A model generated the notes under the pieces. It saw only the letters and a program-made list of their open reading frames with translations, searched no databases and was not told the origin of the DNA. This document shows positions 6,001-64,000 of a stretch of DNA of 64,000 nt, in pieces (position 1 is the stretch's first letter; every line of letters starts with the position of its first letter). Made by a program: the position numbers and the translations under genes. Origin of the DNA: Nitrosospira lacus (GTDB lineage: Bacteria; Pseudomonadota; Gammaproteobacteria; Burkholderiales; Nitrosomonadaceae); the NCBI RefSeq assembly GCF_000355765.4, contig NZ_CP021106.3:777137-841136 (forward strand). The letters run 5' to 3'.

Positions 6001-9000
6001 GTGCTGGCAAGTGCGAAGCTGGATGCCTACGCCACCGGCAATGGCAAACATGGCGGTGACGTGGAAATCGGCACCACCGCGGGGAGGCTGGATTTCGCTG
6101 CCGGCAGCACCCTGGACGTGCATGCAGGGGGTGGGGGTGGCGCCCAGGCGGGCGAGGGAGGGGAAGTGGTGCTGCGCGCGCCCCGCACCGGCGGCGGCGC
6201 AGGCAGCGATGTGGCCGTGGATGGCGTCAACAGCGGCATCAGCGGCGCTCGATCGGTAATAGTGGAAGCGGTCAAGGTCTACGACACTATCACGACGCTC
6301 ACCGCTAGCGGTGCGAGCAGTAGCACGACGCTGAGCCTGGACACGGTGAACACTGACAACAGCGATTTCGCGTCCCACGCTGGTGCGATTGCCTTGCGGC
6401 TGGGCAAGGCCAGCGATCCCGCTTTCCACGTGCGCGCCGGGGTTGAAGTGCGCTCCACCGGGGATCTCACCCTCGGCAATAACTGGAATCTTGCCATCCG
6501 TCCCGCGGGAGAAGAGCCGGGCATGCTGACTCTGCGGGCGGTGGGCAATCTCAATCTCGATAACAATCTGTCTGATGGATTCAATGTGGCGACGCCATTC
6601 AGCAGCGGCACCACGCCGGCCACGCTGTTGCCGGGAGATTCCTGGGGCTACCGGCTGGTTGCGGGAGCGGATGCCGATGCGGCCGATCCGCTGGCGGTCA
6701 ATGCGGGCAGCGGTGATGTCACTTTGGCAGCGGGCAAGCTGGTGCGCACCGGCACCGGCGACATCCGCATTGCGGCGGGGCGCGATATCAGGCTGACTGA
6801 CGAAAAAGCGACGATTTATACTGCTGGCCGGGTTGCCGACCTGGCTAATGGATTTGTCGCACCCGCCAATGCCCAGTTCAGCCAGGGCGGCGGCGATGTA
6901 AGCCTGGCTGCGGCGGGCGATATAGTGGGCATGCCCTCGAAACAACTCTATTCCAACTGGCTGTTCCGTCAGGGAAAACTGAATGATGCCACCGGCGAAT
7001 ATGCGCTCCAGCCCGCCTGGTGGGTGCGCTTCGACCAGTTCCAGCAGGGGATTGGCGCGCTGGGTGGCGGGAGCGTCACACTCGCTGCCGGCGGAAAAGT
7101 GGAGAACGTCTCAGCCAGCACACCCACCCAGGCGCGCATGATGGCGACCGCGCCGACTGTCGGCCAATTGGTGAAAACCGGTGGCGGTGATGTGCGGGTG
7201 GAGACCGGTGGCGATTTGCTGGGTGGCCAATATTATGCCGACCGTGGTGAACTGGTACTGAAGGCGGGCGGCAAGATAGACAGCGGACAAGATCTGAGTG
7301 GCAGTCCGCTTTACACCATCCTGGCCCTGGGCGACGCGCAGGCACGGTTGCAGGCACGGGGCGATGTCAACATCCAGGCTGTGCTGAATCCGCACTTGGT
7401 GATCCAGTCCACTGGCAGGGGAACGGTATTTAATCTCAATGCCAATGCCCCCAGTTCCAGCATCGCCGGCTGGAGCCTGTTCTCGACTTACGGCCAGGAC
7501 AGCGGTGTACATCTGCAGAGTCTGTACGGAGCAGCTACCCTGTCCAATCGTACTGACATACTGGTAAGCGCTTACACGGCACCCCTAAATTTCAATGTAT
7601 CGGTAAATACATACAGTAAGGAGCTGCTGTCCCTGCTGCCGCCCAGCCTCTCAATTACCGCATTTCAGGGAGATATTTATACACCGGCTACGTCAAGCGT
7701 ACTGAGCCCGGCAGCACGTGCAGACCTGACATTGCTGGCGGGAAATTCCATCAATATGCGGGCACCCATGGTCATGAGCGACAGGGACCCAGTGCTGATT
7801 CCGGATGCGGTTCGGCCCGCTGTAAAGCCCAATCAATTTCCACTTTTCACGGTAGATCCTGATTTTAAAGTACTTGTTCACGCACCTGTTCCCGTGCATA
7901 CGGGCGATACCCAGCCAGCGCGGATTTACGCGGCGACTGGGGATGTGCAGGGTAACTTTAACGAACTTACTCTGGATTTATCCAAGGCGGCTCAAGTGCG
8001 TGCGGGACGGGATGTGCGTGATGTGGGTATTCTGGCGCAGCATGCCAATGCTGGCGACCTCAGCCGGGTAGTCGCAGGCAGGGATGTGGCCTTTACTTCC
8101 GGAAATGACCGGACAGAAAACGCCAAGATCTGGGTGGGCGGCCTGGGTCGGCTGGAGGTGACGGCAGGGCGTAATATCGACCTCGGAACATCAGCGGGCA
8201 TCGTCAGCCGAGGCGACCTCGACAACGCCGAACTGCCCAGGGGTGGCGCCGATATTCATGTGGCGGCGGGGGTGGGTGCGCAGGGAATCGATTACGCCGG
8301 CACGGTTGACCGGCTGGCCGCCCAACTGGAAAAAGCGGGTGGCAACCCGGATGATGCCTTGCTATGGGAGGCGCGCTGGCTGGTGGGAAACGACGATTTG
8401 AACGGCGCCGATGCACTGGCGGCGGTCCAGGCAGTACAGGCGCTGGACGCGGATACCCAGCGCGGCATGGTGCGCGAGATGCTCTATACCGCCTTGCTGG
8501 TCACCGGCCGCGATTCAAATAATCGCGACAGTCCGTTCGCGGCAAACTATGAACGTGGCTATGCGGCGCTGGAACTGGTATTTCCGGGAATACGCGAGAA
8601 GAATGCCGATGGCAGCTTCAAGAATTATCAGGGGGAGATCAACCTGTTCGCCAGCCGCATCAAGACCGAGCGGGGCGGCAATATCGAGTTCATGGTGCCG
8701 GGCGGTGACCTGATCGTCGGTCTCAGCAATACGCCGGAAGTGCTGGTGAATACCGGCAATGATGTCCTGGGCATGCTCACGGTGGCCGACGGGAACGTGC
8801 GCGGATTCACCCGCGGCAATATCCTGGTCAATCAGTCGCGCATTCTTACCGTGGGCGGGGGTGATGTGCTGCTGTGGTCGAGCGAGGGCGATATCGATGC
8901 CGGCAAAGGCAAGAAGACCGCGACCGCGGTGCCGCCGCCGGTCATCAAGGTGGATTCGCAGGGCAACGTGACGCAGGAATTGCAGGGCGCCGCTTCCGGC

Positions 9001-9360
9001 AGCGGGATCGGTGCGCTTTCCAGCGGCGGCACGGTCGCGGGCGATATCGACCTGATCGCGCCAAAGGGCACGGTGAACGCGGGCGACGCCGGCATCCGGG
9101 CGAATAACCTCAATATCGCCGCTTCGGTCGTGCTGGGGGCGGACAATATTGCCGTGGCCGGGACTTCCACCGGCACCCCGGTAGCGGATGCCAGCGCGGT
9201 CAGTGCCACCACCTCGGGCGCCGCGTCGCAGGGGGACGATGTATCCAAAGCTACGGCAGCTTTATCGCAGAATCTATCGGATGCCGCACGCACTTCCGAT
9301 GCGATGAGACAGCTCAGGCCTACCTTTATTTCAGCCGAGGTGATCGGGCGCGGTGAGTAG
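1..9360 (+). CDS. Giant filamentous haemagglutinin-family exoprotein, 3' part
   Basis: The reading frame is open from base 1, so the start and the N-terminal two-partner-secretion domain lie outside the window; about 3119 residues are visible. The sequence is rich in Gly, Ala, Asp and Asn, with short irregular repeats of the type GGDVSLAAAGDI, VTAGRNIDLG and GGSVTLAAGGK, as expected for a right-handed beta-helix of the FhaB/large-exoprotein type. The C-terminus (PTFISAEVIGRGE) resembles the conserved end of filamentous haemagglutinin proteins with a DUF3739 domain. By family knowledge it would be exported by Sec plus a TpsB (FhaC-like) pore and act at the cell surface in adhesion or biofilm formation. 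No TpsB gene is visible here and must lie upstream if linked. The stop is only 10 bp from the convergent stop of the phoX-like gene, with no obvious terminator between. Confidence 0.88.
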   Translation, partial: KDGKLDGQTVALKESALDKLGHVTNLGELSTPRGNVTMVGYAVNQQGIARATTSVIANGSVYLLAKDAATGQDNSTRGGRAVLGAGSLTEVLPDVSDNTGVLDGLTGTGLVLPSQVRVLGQDVRMENGAVINAPAGQVNFFAMDNPSLLFVPGDPFVEVNAPISDAARIHIASGARISVAGLENVAVSTARNGVEVELRGDELKDSPVNRDGPLRSQKVFVDINRALANANAGKPTLIAKDSLQSYQARLERNVAERSTQGGTVGVSSQGEVIIESGATIDLSGGSLNYTPASVPTTLLMSRGILTDIANARADVRYDGIATRYVQDFGRWNIKEVIDLGQSFNYDPGYTEGKSAGALEVIGFRASVMQADIQGRTVVGEVQRDLGIMPAGARLTVGTGAVTRNTGATADDYKQNQAVELSSGGALLPAGFKFGDALSSDLITTLRLNPALLGKDKVANLEIFSNQAAAVREALHAPQGGSVHITAQGVTVGADIEAPAGSIVLNALRNDINIASTPLNVMVADGVTLSARGAWVNELRGVPAGSGEVALVHGGKIALTAVDNVALGQNTLLDVTGGGRLRVDGRGSVIAGNGGEISLSGNAVSGVTEENIHGYGIGKGGALSVSSHKIQIGGTPDGTAGTANLGAGFFERGGFADIHLAGIENVTLSEGVRIKPAVLSLELQPDYTLRPSGSRMEDFTRQVKLDDLVRQPVNLSLMAKNTADGTGDLSIGVGARIEADPRANITLAAAHLLDIQGSISAPGGGIMATLDHGLESQKVFDPTHGLWLGKQAVLDVSGTALTFLDSQRLTQGEVLNGGTVALHAQYGYVVTEAGSRIGIAGAAPVRLDILNEAGGLGQWVGSDAGSLRISAREGILLDGTVAAHAGSASNRGGVFDLVLGNNFTPSPDAGLGYPVGERVLSLAPTAAPQASGLTPGAVMPAGLNGQAKLGATALEAAGFDRIALKSRDAIRLEDNLNLGGANRALPLKEVVLDAPRIETAGGNAALKAETLRLGNYDVERVDVVNTPAAGSGTFKADAQLLELAGNLTLTGMARAELSGAQEVRLSGVSSSGLPRPTGTLASAADLLFSGAVIAPATYSQINIQAPGQTVAFSRNTLPPSLPLSALGSLTVTAANIVQDGNVWAPFGQLAFNATDTLTFKEGSLTSIAATPGSLIPFGMLVNGRSWVYKPDLEIPQPALAEKSIRTQAASIDMQAGATLDLAGGGDLQAYEFSVGPGGSRDILNDAHTYAILPGYASGFAPGDRQENTGFGRVAGDAVYLSGIPGLPAGVYTLLPAHYALLPGAYAVRLDTDVHNLLPGQAYSKQDGVQVVPGYVTDSRAPVGGPRDALWSGFEVLTREQVLQRSEITLTRASDFFAASPVRPQDGGLLSIDTAGGLKLDALFKLGAAEGGRGAAVDISAFKIAITNGTPSGTQGIDPLTTRIAASTLNAMGAASLFLGGTRSLAPGGAGTLLTVNAEEVILANDASHALKGDEIILAAKDTLTLKAGSAIETQDPTPGTGGANNANRYETAGNGALVRVASTSAGFSRTGSPDRTLGTLVGEAGSTIRSANSITLDATLQNAFTGTTLFADDRGNPVAGNLTIGATRVNFGNAPAGAEGLIFSQSELDGLNSLTLTSYTTFDLYGDVSLGGVNAEGKPTLQALNLQGAGLAGLNNGGKTANLRATHIVLSNPAASVFAAGGTPGNGVLAIQADKLVLGEGAKAIQGFSQVGIRANELIGRGSGSTDIAAGTANLSVARISGEQGASQTLAATSSLIAIDTVADRALAPVSALGARWALSGTDVMFDTEAILPSGQLKLTATSGNLTLGENAVANAAGRSVAFFDVERASPGGTVELASDNGNVVVQTGAQVDVSATPGGDAGKVIVRAANGTATLAASSLQGAALANAGGARGEGGRFDLDVAALTDFSTLNTALNQGVFDGARTLRVRSGDISLAASDTVKAKDVHIAVDGGKLDVAGHVDASGGDAGSIRLYAKNDVTVLASAKLDAYATGNGKHGGDVEIGTTAGRLDFAAGSTLDVHAGGGGGAQAGEGGEVVLRAPRTGGGAGSDVAVDGVNSGISGARSVIVEAVKVYDTITTLTASGASSSTTLSLDTVNTDNSDFASHAGAIALRLGKASDPAFHVRAGVEVRSTGDLTLGNNWNLAIRPAGEEPGMLTLRAVGNLNLDNNLSDGFNVATPFSSGTTPATLLPGDSWGYRLVAGADADAADPLAVNAGSGDVTLAAGKLVRTGTGDIRIAAGRDIRLTDEKATIYTAGRVADLANGFVAPANAQFSQGGGDVSLAAAGDIVGMPSKQLYSNWLFRQGKLNDATGEYALQPAWWVRFDQFQQGIGALGGGSVTLAAGGKVENVSASTPTQARMMATAPTVGQLVKTGGGDVRVETGGDLLGGQYYADRGELVLKAGGKIDSGQDLSGSPLYTILALGDAQARLQARGDVNIQAVLNPHLVIQSTGRGTVFNLNANAPSSSIAGWSLFSTYGQDSGVHLQSLYGAATLSNRTDILVSAYTAPLNFNVSVNTYSKELLSLLPPSLSITAFQGDIYTPATSSVLSPAARADLTLLAGNSINMRAPMVMSDRDPVLIPDAVRPAVKPNQFPLFTVDPDFKVLVHAPVPVHTGDTQPARIYAATGDVQGNFNELTLDLSKAAQVRAGRDVRDVGILAQHANAGDLSRVVAGRDVAFTSGNDRTENAKIWVGGLGRLEVTAGRNIDLGTSAGIVSRGDLDNAELPRGGADIHVAAGVGAQGIDYAGTVDRLAAQLEKAGGNPDDALLWEARWLVGNDDLNGADALAAVQAVQALDADTQRGMVREMLYTALLVTGRDSNNRDSPFAANYERGYAALELVFPGIREKNADGSFKNYQGEINLFASRIKTERGGNIEFMVPGGDLIVGLSNTPEVLVNTGNDVLGMLTVADGNVRGFTRGNILVNQSRILTVGGGDVLLWSSEGDIDAGKGKKTATAVPPPVIKVDSQGNVTQELQGAASGSGIGALSSGGTVAGDIDLIAPKGTVNAGDAGIRANNLNIAASVVLGADNIAVAGTSTGTPVADASAVSATTSGAASQGDDVSKATAALSQNLSDAARTSDAMRQLRPTFISAEVIGRGE

Positions 9361-9370
9361 GACGCGGCGG

Positions 9371-11467
9371 TCAAGTACCGATCACGCCGCCATCGTCCTT
9401 GGTGATGGCCACCACCGCGGAACGTGGCTTGAATGCGGAGAGGGACCCGCTGGCCGTGGTCGGGCCATTGATACCGCTATCGGGCCAGGTCGAGTTCTCG
9501 GTGTAATGGGTCTGCCAGTCCTCGCCCGGGTGCTGGATGCCGATGAACAGGGTCTTGCCGTCGGGGGTATGGGTAACGCCGGTGACTTCGCAGTTCTTCG
9601 GCGCGGTGAGAAACCGGCGGGTTTCGCCGGTGTAGGGGTCGGCGCACAGCATGATGTTTCCGCCGATGTTGGCCCAGTCGCCGGTTGCATTGCCAATCTG
9701 GTCGGTCTGGATCCACAGGCGGCCATCCTGGTCGAACCAGAGGCCATCCGGGGCGCCATAGTCGTCACCGATAATATTGCCCTGGTGGTGAGGCTGAGGG
9801 TCGAGCTTGTCGCCGCATTCGACGAAGATATCCCATTCGAAATCCGTGGCGTCGACCTTGCCCATGCTTTCGCGCCAACGGATGATGTGCCCGTAGCGGT
9901 TGTCCGGTCTCGGATTCGCGGCGTCCACCGGCGGCCGGGCGCTGCCGGCGCCGGTGGTGCCGTCCGGGTTGTTGCTGGAGGGTGGGTTGCTGCCGCGGCG
10001 GTTGTTGTTGGTGAGGGTCATGTAGACCTCGCGCGTGACGGGGTGCGAGGCTATCCATTCCGGACGGTCCATGATGGTGGCACCCAGGCGATCGGCGGCC
10101 TGGCGGGTCTTGATCAGTACTTCGGCCTGGTCGGCAAAGCCGTTTTCCGGCACCAGACCATTCTGACCCCACGTAAGCGGCAACCAGATGCCGCTGCCGC
10201 CGGCGTCGAACCTGGCGACAAACAGGGTGCCGGAGTCCAGCAGATCGCGGTTGGCGGCGCGATTCCTGGGGTTGTACTTATTGGCGCAGACAAACTTGTA
10301 GAGATACTCGTTGCGCTCGTCGTCACCCATGTATATGGCGACTGTGTTGTCCGCACCCACCACGCTCCAGGCGTTTTCGTGCTTGATGCGCCCCAGCGCG
10401 GTGCGTTTGATGGGGGTGCTTTTCGGGTTCCAGGGGTCGATTTCCACTACCCAGCCGAAACGATGCGGCTCATTCGGGTTGAGGTCGGCGCGGAAGCGCT
10501 GATCGGCTTCGTGCCAGCGGTAGCCGGAGCCTCCCTTGACCACGCCGTAGCGTGTCTGGCCGGCAAGAATTTGCTGTTTCTGTTGCGGGTCCGATACGCC
10601 GACCGCATCCCCGGTCTCATTGGAGAAATAGCCATTCCAGTTTTCTTCGCAGGTGAGGTAGGTGTCCCAGGGGGTATAGCCATTGGCGCAGTTATTCAGC
10701 GTGCCGAGAACGTTCGTGCCGCTGGGGTCGGCGGCGGTCTTCATCAGATTGTGGCCGGCTGCCGGGCCGCTGAGCTTGCAGGGAGAATTGCCAGTGATGC
10801 GCCGGTTGAAGGCGGAGGGGCGCTTGACTTCCCAGTTGCCGTCTTTTTTCCATACCTCGACCACGCTTATGCCATGCGCAGCCTGCTGGGCGCGCACCAT
10901 GTCAAGGGTGATGGGGGCGGCCGCGTAGCCGGATGCGGGAGTGATATTATTGACCAGCGGAGGATCGACGTACTCATGGTTGGTGACCAGCAGTCCGCGG
11001 ATATTGGCGATGCCGGCTGCGCCGGCGGCGGGGAAAGGGAACAGGTGCATGCCGTCGATATGGGCGCCGAAAGTATGCAACTGCGTCGCTTCGGTCATTG
11101 CGCCTGAGGGGTCCCAATGCGGCGCATTGGTGAGGGAATCGCCCCAGGCGGCCAGCACCCGGGCGGTGTAGCCGGCGGGCACCGTGACCCTGTCATCCCC
11201 CGCCGAAAGATATAGATTGGCGGGCACCGAGCTGAAGCCGATGCCGTTCAAAGGGGCGGGTGCCGCATGGGCATACTTGATCAGGCCATCGAATAGAGAA
11301 CCGCCGAATGCGGCCACCGCCGTGATACCCAGGGAGCCTTGAAGGAAAGTCCGGCGGGATAGCTTGCGCGCTTCGATCAAATCATGGAGGGACGGGTTGC
11401 CGGATTCGTTACTGCTGGTACGGCAGGGATTTGTTTTTCCATCGGGGTGCAGGGCGCTGCTCATCAT
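9371..11467 (-). CDS. phoX: PhoX-family (DUF839) Tat-exported alkaline phosphatase
   Basis: A 698-residue protein that would release phosphate from organic phosphomonoesters in the periplasm or outside the cell, using calcium and iron in characterised PhoX enzymes. A twin-arginine signal is clear (SRRTFLQ, Arg38-Arg39, then a hydrophobic stretch to about residue 60). Family motifs are visible in order: TNHEYVDP, TCEENWNGYF, HRFGWVVEIDP, KHENAW and YMGDDERNEYLYKF. The start codon is one of two adjacent ATGs: the ribosome site AAGGAG sits 2 bases before the ATG at 11467 but a better 5 bases before the one at 11464. It lies downstream of a glycerophosphodiesterase gene on the same strand, and together they suggest scavenging of organic phosphate. 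No convincing Pho box was found. A long open frame on the other strand (9353-11107) is a shadow. Confidence 0.9.
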   Translation of the reverse strand: MMSSALHPDGKTNPCRTSSNESGNPSLHDLIEARKLSRRTFLQGSLGITAVAAFGGSLFDGLIKYAHAAPAPLNGIGFSSVPANLYLSAGDDRVTVPAGYTARVLAAWGDSLTNAPHWDPSGAMTEATQLHTFGAHIDGMHLFPFPAAGAAGIANIRGLLVTNHEYVDPPLVNNITPASGYAAAPITLDMVRAQQAAHGISVVEVWKKDGNWEVKRPSAFNRRITGNSPCKLSGPAAGHNLMKTAADPSGTNVLGTLNNCANGYTPWDTYLTCEENWNGYFSNETGDAVGVSDPQQKQQILAGQTRYGVVKGGSGYRWHEADQRFRADLNPNEPHRFGWVVEIDPWNPKSTPIKRTALGRIKHENAWSVVGADNTVAIYMGDDERNEYLYKFVCANKYNPRNRAANRDLLDSGTLFVARFDAGGSGIWLPLTWGQNGLVPENGFADQAEVLIKTRQAADRLGATIMDRPEWIASHPVTREVYMTLTNNNRRGSNPPSSNNPDGTTGAGSARPPVDAANPRPDNRYGHIIRWRESMGKVDATDFEWDIFVECGDKLDPQPHHQGNIIGDDYGAPDGLWFDQDGRLWIQTDQIGNATGDWANIGGNIMLCADPYTGETRRFLTAPKNCEVTGVTHTPDGKTLFIGIQHPGEDWQTHYTENSTWPDSGINGPTTASGSLSAFKPRSAVVAITKDDGGVIGT

Positions 11468-61622: not shown

Positions 61623-63104
61623 ATGCAATGGGAAATCGTTGTCGGTCTTGAAGTGCATACTCAGCTCTCGACCCAATCAAAAATATTCTCCGGGGCTTCG
61701 ACCGCATTTGGCGCGGCGCCCAACACCGAGGCTTGCGCGGTCGATCTCGCGTTGCCGGGTGTATTGCCGGTATTGAATCGTGGCGCAGTGGAGCGGGCGA
61801 TCAAACTGGGTCTGGCAGTGGGTGGCAAAATCAATTCGCCCTCAATTTTTGCGCGGAAGAATTATTTCTATCCCGACTTGCCCAAAGGTTATCAGATCAG
61901 CCAGTACGAATTACCGGTGGTTGAAGGCGGCAGCGTCACGATTCAATCTGGCGAGGTTGAAAGAGTCATTCGCCTCACCCGTGCGCATCTGGAAGAGGAT
62001 GCGGGAAAGTCACTGCATGAGGATTTTCATGGCATGACCGGCATCGATCTGAACCGTGCCGGCACTCCCCTGCTGGAGATCGTTTCCGAGCCCGATATGC
62101 GCAGCAGTGCGGAAGCGGTTGTGTATGCCAAAACACTGCACTCGCTGGTGCGCTGGATTGGCATTTGCGACGGCAATATGCAGGAAGGGTCGTTCCGGTG
62201 CGACGCCAATGTATCCGTTCGCCCACAGGGATCGGACAAACTAGGTACCCGCTGCGAGATAAAAAACCTCAACTCGTTCCGCTTTCTTGAGAAAGCGATT
62301 GATTACGAGGCCAGACGGCAGATAGAAATCCTTGAAGATGGCGGAACCATACAACAGCAAACTCGGCTCTACGATTCGGAGAAGGATGAAACCCGCGCCA
62401 TGCGCAGCAAGGAAGACGCGCAGGATTACCGCTACTTCCCTGACCCGGATTTGTTGCCGCTGGAAATCGGGGAAGACTGGATTGCGGAAGTGCGGCGTGG
62501 GTTACCCGAATTGCCGCAGCAAATGCGAGCCCGCCTTGAGCGCGACTATGGCCTTTCCACCTATGACGCGGCGGCTTTGACAGGGGACCGGGAAATTGCG
62601 GAATACTACGAAGCGGTTATCGATAAACTCCCTTCCGACCCTAAACTTTGTGCAAACTGGGTAATGGGCGATATCTCAGGCTATCTGAATGACGAAGGAA
62701 AGTTTTTTGACAGCTGTCCGCTATCTCCGGAGCAACTTGCACAGCTTCTGACGCGTATCAAGGATGGCACCATCTCAGGCAAGATTGCGAAGGAAGTATT
62801 CAAACAGATGTGGGTCAAGGTGAGCGCACAGCCCGTGGCATGGAAGCGCCGCGAATCGGGGTGGGATATGGGTCTTGCCGACCAGATCATCGAGTCGCAG
62901 GGATTGAAGCAGATCTCCGATTCAGGTGCACTGGAAAAATTGGTCGGCGAGGTGATCGCCGCCAATGCAAAATCCGTGGAAGAATTCAGGGCTGGCAAGG
63001 AGAAAGCCTTTAATGCCTTGGTTGGCCAAGTAATGAAGGTCGCCAAGGGCAAGGCCAATCCGGCGCAAGTGAATGAGATATTAAAAAAGAAGCTGGTGGA
63101 ATGA
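61623..63104 (+). CDS. gatB: Aspartyl/glutamyl-tRNA amidotransferase subunit B
   Basis: A 493-residue kinase-like subunit that activates the carboxyl of mischarged tRNA. Marks are [84 protein letters not shown] and the C-terminal YqeY-like tail ending in [14 protein letters not shown] lies 9 bases before the start. It marks the end of the core genome part of the window. Confidence 0.97.
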
Positions 63105-63323
63105 GCATTGATGATATCCCGTCAGTCCCCAATATCAATTTACAAACCAGGATTCACGGTGTTATGTTGTCCATCTCGTGAGTAGATCAAATAGCAAGAT
63201 GAATCCTTGCATAACGAATTTGAACATTGTGAATTTACAATTGATAACCTATTTATCATCGGTAAAATGCTCCCATGAGGGGCGACCGGCGCCGAACTCA
63301 ACGCAGAAGATGGGTGGGCAGTC

Positions 63324-63605
63324 ATGAGCAATCGCTTCCTGAGGTGGGTCGACACATGGATCGAGGAAAACATCCCTCCCGGCGCCAATTTCGACATAGA
63401 GAGTCATGAAGTAAAGACAAAGCGGCTGTCGGAGAAACTGTTCGCCGAGGCCGCTGCGGCCAACTTCACAAACTTCGAGACCGAGGAGGAGCGGGAGCGC
63501 GTTACGCCCCTGGTACTGGCCGCGGTCTCGGACAGCAGAGACTTTGACATCGATGCCTATCATCTCAAGTCGCAACTTGCGCGGGAGAATGAAGATGGCG
63601 ACTGA
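63324..63605 (+). CDS. Small DUF768-like protein
   Basis: A 93-residue acidic soluble protein. The N-terminal pattern FLRWVDTWIEENIP followed by an alpha-helical segment (SEKLFAEAAAANFTNFETEEE) and an acidic end resembles the DUF768 small proteins found mostly in rhizobia. No function is known. It has no signal peptide or membrane segment. It lies 219 bp after gatB and 28 bp before an attC site, in DNA that looks unlike the preceding core genes. The assignment is by pattern only and the reading frame could be part of a transferred gene cassette. Confidence 0.55.
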   Translation: MSNRFLRWVDTWIEENIPPGANFDIESHEVKTKRLSEKLFAEAAAANFTNFETEEERERVTPLVLAAVSDSRDFDIDAYHLKSQLARENEDGD

Positions 63606-63633
63606 GCCCCGCATGAAGGACTGTTCTTGTGAC

Positions 63634-63691
63634 GCCTAACGTTTGAGTTCAGCGGCTGCCAAAGGCAGTCCGCTGGAACGAAGGGTTAGAT
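63634..63691 (-). mobile_element. Integron attC recombination site (59-base element)
   Basis: The 58-bp site starts with GCCTAAC and ends with GTTAGAT, the paired R boxes. Inside, AGCGG/CCGCT and CTGCC/GGCAG form the stem with the loop AAA and a single unpaired T. On the minus strand the arms read TTCGTTC and AACTCAA, which match the usual L boxes of known attC sites, and an extra C in the first arm gives the normal extrahelical base. The site is therefore oriented with the minus-strand DUF1349 gene upstream, 35 bp away. No integrase gene is visible. Confidence 0.88.
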
Positions 63692-63726: not shown

Positions 63727-64000
63727 CTAACGTAACCGGTCTGGCTCGAAGCGCAGGAACGAGAATTCCGCTTCGTAACCTGCTGCCTTTGGGCTACAGG
63801 CGTACAAACCACATGACACTGATTTCACTGCCGGCCGTTCAAGCAGGCGCGCTATTCGAATTGCTCCCACTCCTGACCATTGAACGAGGACTCGACGATG
63901 TAGTCGTTGTCTTCGGCCTGGACTCGAAACCAAACGGTACGCACTTCCGCGGCGATTGGCTGTGTTGACCAGTCCGAGTAGGGGATGTAAGCCGGAACCG
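63727..64000 (-). pseudogene. DUF1349 (concanavalin A-like) gene, frameshifted and cut by the window end
   Basis: Two minus-strand frames together make a DUF1349 C-terminal region. From the window end to 63852 one frame reads YIPYSDWSTQPIAAEVRTVW and VESSFNGQEWEQFE, then meets TAG. The other frame continues as IRIARLL, VSCGLYACSPKAAGYEAEF and LRFEPDRLR to a stop at 63727. The two halves join if one base is added near 63860 (between CA and ATTCGA on this strand), so a single-base deletion or a sequence error broke the gene. DUF1349 proteins are small beta-sandwich proteins of unclear role. The gene probably is the cassette gene of the adjacent attC site. Confidence 0.75.

Follow-up and report, generated by a model that had tools for sequence, protein, structure and literature searches.

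A single attC-like site lies downstream of gatB in the chromosome of Nitrosospira lacus, between a DUF768 gene and a broken DUF1349 gene. Its position raises two questions: which of the two neighbours does it close, and does it belong to a working integron, to a larger array or to a relic of one? The window analysed here is a stretch of 64,000 nucleotides (contig NZ_CP021106.3, positions 777,137 to 841,136), and the site stands close to its right-hand end. A first-pass annotation, made from the letters alone, had described a well-formed attC between cassette-type genes and had offered three settings for it: a lone cassette insertion, a cluster of attC sites lacking an integrase (CALIN), or an integron continuing past the window. 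The features concerned are listed below by window position.

61623..63104, plus: gatB, chromosomal flank (Pfam GatB_N and GatB_Yqey)
63241..63268, plus: sigma-70-like promoter TTGATA-16-TAAAAT, 5' of DUF768 (consensus scan)
63324..63605, plus: DUF768 gene, 93 aa (Pfam PF05589, E 5.2e-37)
63606..63639, minus: putative beginning of the following cassette, between the crossover and the stop codon of DUF768 (flank alignment with L181 and L171)
63634..63691, minus: attC (model R1, 59.8 bits, genome E 7.8e-11; DNA fold z -5.05)
63640-63634, minus: R' box, GTTAGGC
between G 63640 and T 63639, minus: attC crossover
63676 (G) and 63669 (T), plus (bottom) strand: extrahelical bases
63691-63685, minus: R'' box, ATCTAAC
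63727..64000, minus: decayed DUF1349 gene, running 7 bases past the window (Pfam PF07081; frames read)

The attC site and the strand on which it reads

An Rfam scan of 56-64 kb of the window returned no match, and a loose R-box pattern was rejected as evidence, being rarer in the whole genome (2 forward and 1 reverse) than in its reversed control (9 and 7). A rule-based attC finder caught the window site, yet degenerate and long sites in integron loci escaped it. For these reasons we built a covariance model, R1, from 18 attC sites, none of them picked for likeness to the window site: they come from integron loci of the family, from matches to a generic attC pattern and from two plasmid cassettes other than the BLAST match itself. 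A nineteenth site (L135:33-104) was left out because MAFFT had misaligned it. Covariation backs the 20-pair structure of the model: in 30 cells both sides had changed, where shuffles gave 9.9.

Run over the whole genome (3.26 Mb, E <= 1), R1 gives two matches. The window site is the better of the two, its E-value of 7.8e-11 being rough, as are all R1 E-values, owing to a shortened calibration; the other scores 41.9 bits at C1:452386-452454, 388 kb away. On the minus strand the window site shows standard pairing at 19 of the 20 model pairs. Its R'' and R' boxes follow the pattern RYYYAAC ... GTTRRRY with 6 of 7 R pairs standard, and the L''/L' stem leaves unpaired extrahelical bases on the bottom strand at model positions 16 and 23, which are unpaired in the training sites too. 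Folded as single-stranded DNA, the plus strand of the 58-base site reaches -16.5 kcal/mol (z -5.05, with 0 of 200 shuffles as good) and the minus strand -14.4 kcal/mol (z -4.16). The site is a real, well-formed attC at exactly the position first proposed; the finding that would have undone that proposal was a genome with no model match and no other attC or integrase, and what the scan returned was a strong match together with a second attC at 452 kb.

Given how often loose R-box patterns turn up in the genome, a chance hairpin or a transcription terminator might imitate such a site. We give this explanation hardly any weight, since the score and genome E-value are those of an attC, the extrahelical bases are in place, and no terminator-like site is reported at 63634-63691. 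Moreover, plasmid sites found by BLAST match part or most of the window site at 78-89% identity, and among these the model accepts the sites in L100, L101 and L102 as attC. The sites beside aacA34 on CP043572, beside dfrB2 on R388 and on Stutzerimonas stutzeri p1_PM101005 are 57-58 bases long, share the architecture of the window site and are 78-87% identical to it (BLAST); those on CP043572 and R388 stand in class 1 integron settings with resistance genes, whereas the window attC lies in a chromosome without integrase.

The strand of the site decides which gene it closes. The model scores 59.8 bits on the minus strand against 18.3 bits on the plus strand, and as a check of convention it calls the dfrB2 attC of R388 in the direction of the dfrB2 gene. 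The two unpaired model positions sit on the R'' side of the top strand; in the window site they are C and A on the minus strand, that is, G 63676 and T 63669 on the plus strand. Because both extrahelical bases lie on the plus strand, and the strand scores agree, the model identifies plus as the recombinogenic bottom strand, the strand described as recombined by the integrase (PMC11023631), and the attC as reading on minus. The cassette that it closes would thus lie to the right, on the minus strand. The elements do share one orientation, as had been noted, although the direction itself needed correcting to minus. With the correct strand the gene assignment is reversed, which is a general caution for lone attC sites judged by eye.

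The flanking genes and the crossover junction

To the right of the site the minus strand carries pieces of DUF1349 (Pfam E 4.5e-9), the C-terminal half of which is spread over two frames (63777-64007 and 63742-63861). In a genome-level search the overlapping pieces cover profile positions 92-169, with one TGA and one TAG inside, and 139-178, and positions 1-91 are missing: the gene is decayed, with a frameshift and its N-terminal half gone. Its last stop codon (63727-63729) comes 35 bases before R''. Judged by its sequence and placement, DUF1349 is the cassette gene that ends in the window attC, upstream of it in attC orientation. It occurs in 1 of 125 family genomes, namely that of the window, and a plasmid search with the fragment gave 5 distant records at 30-36% identity; we read it as a probable foreign cassette gene in decay. 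No paper connecting DUF1349 with integrons was found in the open-licence literature searched.

On the R' side of the attC stands the DUF768 gene, the two being tail to tail. Among 24 DUF768 loci confirmed in a scan of named genomes, R1 finds matches at E <= 0.05 in four (L171, L165, L167 and L174). The Nevskia MAG locus L171 (NZ_CAISIQ010000437.1) has four attC sites, the nearest of which starts 27 bases behind the DUF768 stop codon, and its DUF768 gene is inverted and follows the four sites, where a fifth cassette would stand. Its contig carries an intI of 465.7 bits over the whole profile, with one in-frame TGA, at 8434-9378 of the locus and divergent from the attC array; we infer that the intI contig, G165:C437, is that of L171 from the contig number and a matching open frame. 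In N. multiformis Nl7 and Nl12 (L165 and L167) and in a Rhizobacter MAG (L174) the attC precedes DUF768, its relative orientation unchanged. An attC also stands behind DUF768 in 6 of 11 further family loci, again in the same relative orientation and all in a Nitrosomonas-like group (g3, presumably Nitrosomonas); a seventh locus, L064, has the same attC sequence by eye, uncalled by the model. In all of these cases in relatives the attC is on the strand opposite DUF768.

These loci bear on the geometry implied by the first-pass annotation, in which DUF768 would be a cassette gene ending in the window attC on the plus strand. The gene does end 28 bases before the site on that strand, yet the plus strand scores 18.3 bits against 59.8, it is the strand that bears the extrahelical bases, and in Nevskia the intI and the four attC sites orient the array independently, with DUF768 inverted there. 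Such a geometry is very improbable, and we correct it: the attC belongs to the decayed DUF1349 gene, and DUF768 would lie inverted in the cassette that follows.

Read along the attC top strand, the junction is ...CTCAAAC G|TTAGGCGTCACAAGAACAGTCCTTCATGCGGGGCTCA, at the end of which comes the DUF768 stop. From the TT on, the DUF768 side matches cassette borders elsewhere: 30 of 39 aligned columns are identical to a Bradyrhizobium MAG (L181) and 28 of 37 to the Nevskia MAG. The 25 bases before the TT agree in 17 and 12 positions respectively, mostly in the L' box. Over three comparisons identity is 30/39, 28/37 and 27/41 to the right of the crossover and 17/25, 12/25 and 16/27 to the left; conservation of the L' box in all attC sites keeps this contrast moderate. 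The homology that starts at the crossover stands behind three different attC sites (that of L181 truncated and seen by eye only), which fits what site-specific joining of cassettes would predict.

This junction is also what weighs against a single DUF1349 cassette having integrated at a chance G|TT site, of the attG type, beside an unrelated resident DUF768 gene. Integration at attG sites has been described (PMC12444791), the locus holds a single attC, and most of the DUF768 genes carried by 18 of 23 genus genomes have no attC beside them, all of which would suit such an event. The 3' flank of DUF768, however, is itself cassette sequence up to the crossover, as a random target would not be, and we regard the attG-type event as unlikely.

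At its other end the DUF768 cassette of the window no longer has its own upstream attC, and promoter-like sequence is found there instead. The consensus scan for sigma-70-like promoters found 3 against 0.7 expected, and TTGATA-16-TAAAAT is common to most Nitrosospira copies of DUF768. The cassette-type copies L165 and L167 are without it and have the cassette's own attC further upstream of DUF768. In L171 the 5' side of DUF768 carries what by eye is a degenerate copy of the L165/L167 attC, uncalled by the model at E <= 10, and the 3' side has an attC called by the model; the intI lies on the contig. Promoter activity within cassettes is discussed in the literature (PMC11014356).

DUF768, integrases and attC sites across the family

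DUF768 is present as a single copy in 18 of 23 Nitrosospira genomes, the 17 others being 90-98% identical to the window copy, and more distant members occur in 11 other family genomes. Most of the 24 confirmed loci belong to Nitrosospira, to Nevskia or to other Pseudomonadota MAGs; Bradyrhizobium and Bauldia contribute one MAG each, and the label "rhizobial type" first given to the gene is not borne out for these close relatives. The identification of DUF768 and DUF1349 themselves stands, by their Pfam matches, and both behave as the cassette-type genes that they had been taken for. Searches of plasmids with DUF768 DNA and protein gave no match, and no paper mentioning DUF768 was found in the open-licence literature searched.

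In a tree of DUF768 all Nitrosospira copies form one clade (100/99) within a larger clade that includes the Nevskia, Rhizobacter and Bradyrhizobium MAG copies (96/91). Because of this single clade, DUF768 is likely to have entered the genus once. The window copy is nested among the other Nitrosospira copies, with weak support in a weakly resolved tree, and the 15 copies besides those of the window, Nl7 and Nl12 have no adjacent attC and a different sequence on their 3' side. It has to be assumed, given these positions, either that the cassette-type 3' border was lost repeatedly elsewhere or that it re-entered by recombination between a resident and an incoming copy. We suggest tentatively a history, possible though by our estimate the less probable way round, in which DUF768 was an inverted cassette gene with its own promoter that entered Nitrosospira once, lost its attC sites, became single-copy in most of the genus and still changes its chromosomal place by an attC-free route, with the window and Nl7/Nl12 keeping opposite cassette borders.

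The neighbourhoods of the gene vary: the 18 Nitrosospira copies (L041-L058) fall into 15 left-flank and 12 right-flank groups. They share a sharp left edge near the promoter, near TTGATAACC. When the left flank of the G012 copy was used to look for an empty site of the DUF768 unit, no clean one emerged. The right flanks of L046 and many other Nitrosospira loci share up to about 190 bases; judged by eye, an opposing gene has its 3' end there, about ...TDAKNYRLVSRKILENK. An apparent deletion between repeats GCTTGTCAGCTG is seen in L048, and a dispersed short repeat at L007 6201-6262 also occurs near DUF768 in L046/L168 and L056/L166 (90-96%, 50-63 bases).

The chromosomal setting can be compared with relatives in the way the first-pass annotation had proposed. 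Fourteen of the 23 genus genomes have the same SDR gene tail to tail with gatB and no more than 1.5 kb behind it. The window genome separates the two by 6.6 kb (L007 1242-7853, window position 63105 and beyond), an interval occupied by two Sel1-repeat genes, a NUDIX gene and a fatty-acid hydroxylase besides DUF768, the attC and the remnant of DUF1349. Across genome bases 820,000-875,000 (L007-L009) R1 finds no further attC at E <= 5, which speaks against an integron running on past the window. Two candidates were rejected. A 53-base R-box pair at genome position 844129 lies inside a Sel1-repeat gene (L007 4350-5225) and has no R1 match, and a second attC suspected by eye within the DUF1349 remnant gives nothing above 2.1 bits with filters off; an 11.9-bit match at 63008-63086 in that same run falls inside gatB.

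No integrase had been seen in the window, and this holds for the whole genome: neither has a match to the intI profile TIGR02249 over the cut-off, or anything at E <= 1e-60. The best pieces in the genome reach 80.9 and 68.6 bits against a cut-off of 265. They are split matches within three frames of 319-376 aa, of which the two best lack a match to about positions 185-236 of the profile, so that they resemble Xer-type recombinases more than IntI. The second attC of the genome (C1:452386-452454, L189 8387-8455) has a 241-aa gene ending inside R'' and a 246-aa ORF starting in R', and two more cassettes seem to stand there head to tail; a HepT-like match of the 241-aa gene is weak, below the cut-off.

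In the family as a whole intI is found over the cut-off in 24 of 125 genomes, and attC sites in 78 (R1, E <= 0.01). Scattered attC sites at this threshold occur in 10 of 23 Nitrosospira genomes, among which only G002 has a complete intI over the cut-off; a partial one in G019 scores 230 bits. Some of these lone sites stand directly behind typical small cassette genes, of the CMD family in G011 and others by eye. Others occupy the same chromosomal place in G016 and G022 (L195 7923-7977 with L196 7116-7170, and L194 7629-7687 with L197 7541-7599), two of them behind small genes that are PhnB/glyoxalase-like by eye, in genomes without intI. Owing to the small cassette genes and the shared positions, the lone Nitrosospira attC sites look like vertically inherited relics. 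Searches for Nitrosospira with integrons and with attC found no paper on integrons of Nitrosospira among the titles and opening lines of abstracts of the open-licence literature.

A probable two-cassette remnant

We conclude, with a probability of roughly 0.8, that what survives at this place in the Nitrosospira chromosome is a relic of two adjoining cassettes of an integron array, with the DUF1349 cassette, the attC and an inverted DUF768 cassette as its parts. On the minus strand the order would be the DUF1349 cassette, now a pseudogene, then the attC, then the DUF768 cassette with its gene inverted, sitting behind its own promoter-like sequence and having lost its own attC. The joining of the two cassettes would be the past work of an integron integrase acting at G|TT on the folded bottom strand of the attC, and the pair may have arrived in the chromosome through horizontal transfer, or from an array that has since disappeared. 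The attC would now be inert unless IntI arrives in trans, and DUF768 is probably still expressed from its putative promoter. Three things count against the two-cassette reading: the locus has one attC, so that the array is read from homology and not from two sites; the identity contrast at the crossover is moderate; and the attC-free copies elsewhere in Nitrosospira call for recombination or repeated loss.

A livelier role for the locus would be that of a reservoir, its DUF1349 and DUF768 cassettes still being shuffled in trans by an integrase from a plasmid or a neighbouring cell. The attC boxes and extrahelical bases are intact, and two genus genomes carry intI sequence (complete in G002, partial in G019); against this, DUF1349 is decayed, the own attC of DUF768 is not found at the locus and the window genome has no intI. 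We consider such a reservoir improbable, slightly more so than the attG-type event.

Among known arrangements, the two-cassette relic is best read as a lone-attC remnant of a known kind, a SALIN, and not as a working integron. A SALIN is described as a single attC lacking an integron integrase (PMC9229058), and the locus has a single attC and no intI. As far as that description goes, the likeness extends to the adjacent cassette gene, the want of an intI nearby and the presence of several such sites scattered in a genome; the present locus differs in that its R'-side flank is the recognisable start of a second cassette and in that its cassette gene is a pseudogene. A CALIN is likewise an attC-marked cassette remnant without integrase, but in IntegronFinder 2.0 it needs at least two attC sites by default (PMC9024848), although the authors state that single-attC CALINs can be true (PMC9024848). 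The window locus has one attC, the other being 388 kb away and not clustered with it, which speaks against the CALIN option offered at first. A complete integron would have intI, attI and an array of attC sites, and there is no TIGR02249 match over the cut-off here. A further counterpart is the Nevskia integron: there too an attC of like orientation precedes this start of the DUF768 cassette, but the setting is an array with an intI (with its one in-frame TGA) and four attC sites.

The locus indicates that cassette genes can outlive their integron: DUF1349 decays, and the inverted DUF768, with its own promoter, stays intact through most of the genus. For Nitrosospira, a genus of ammonia oxidisers, it means that attC-marked cassettes are scattered through the chromosomes although most of these are without an integrase.
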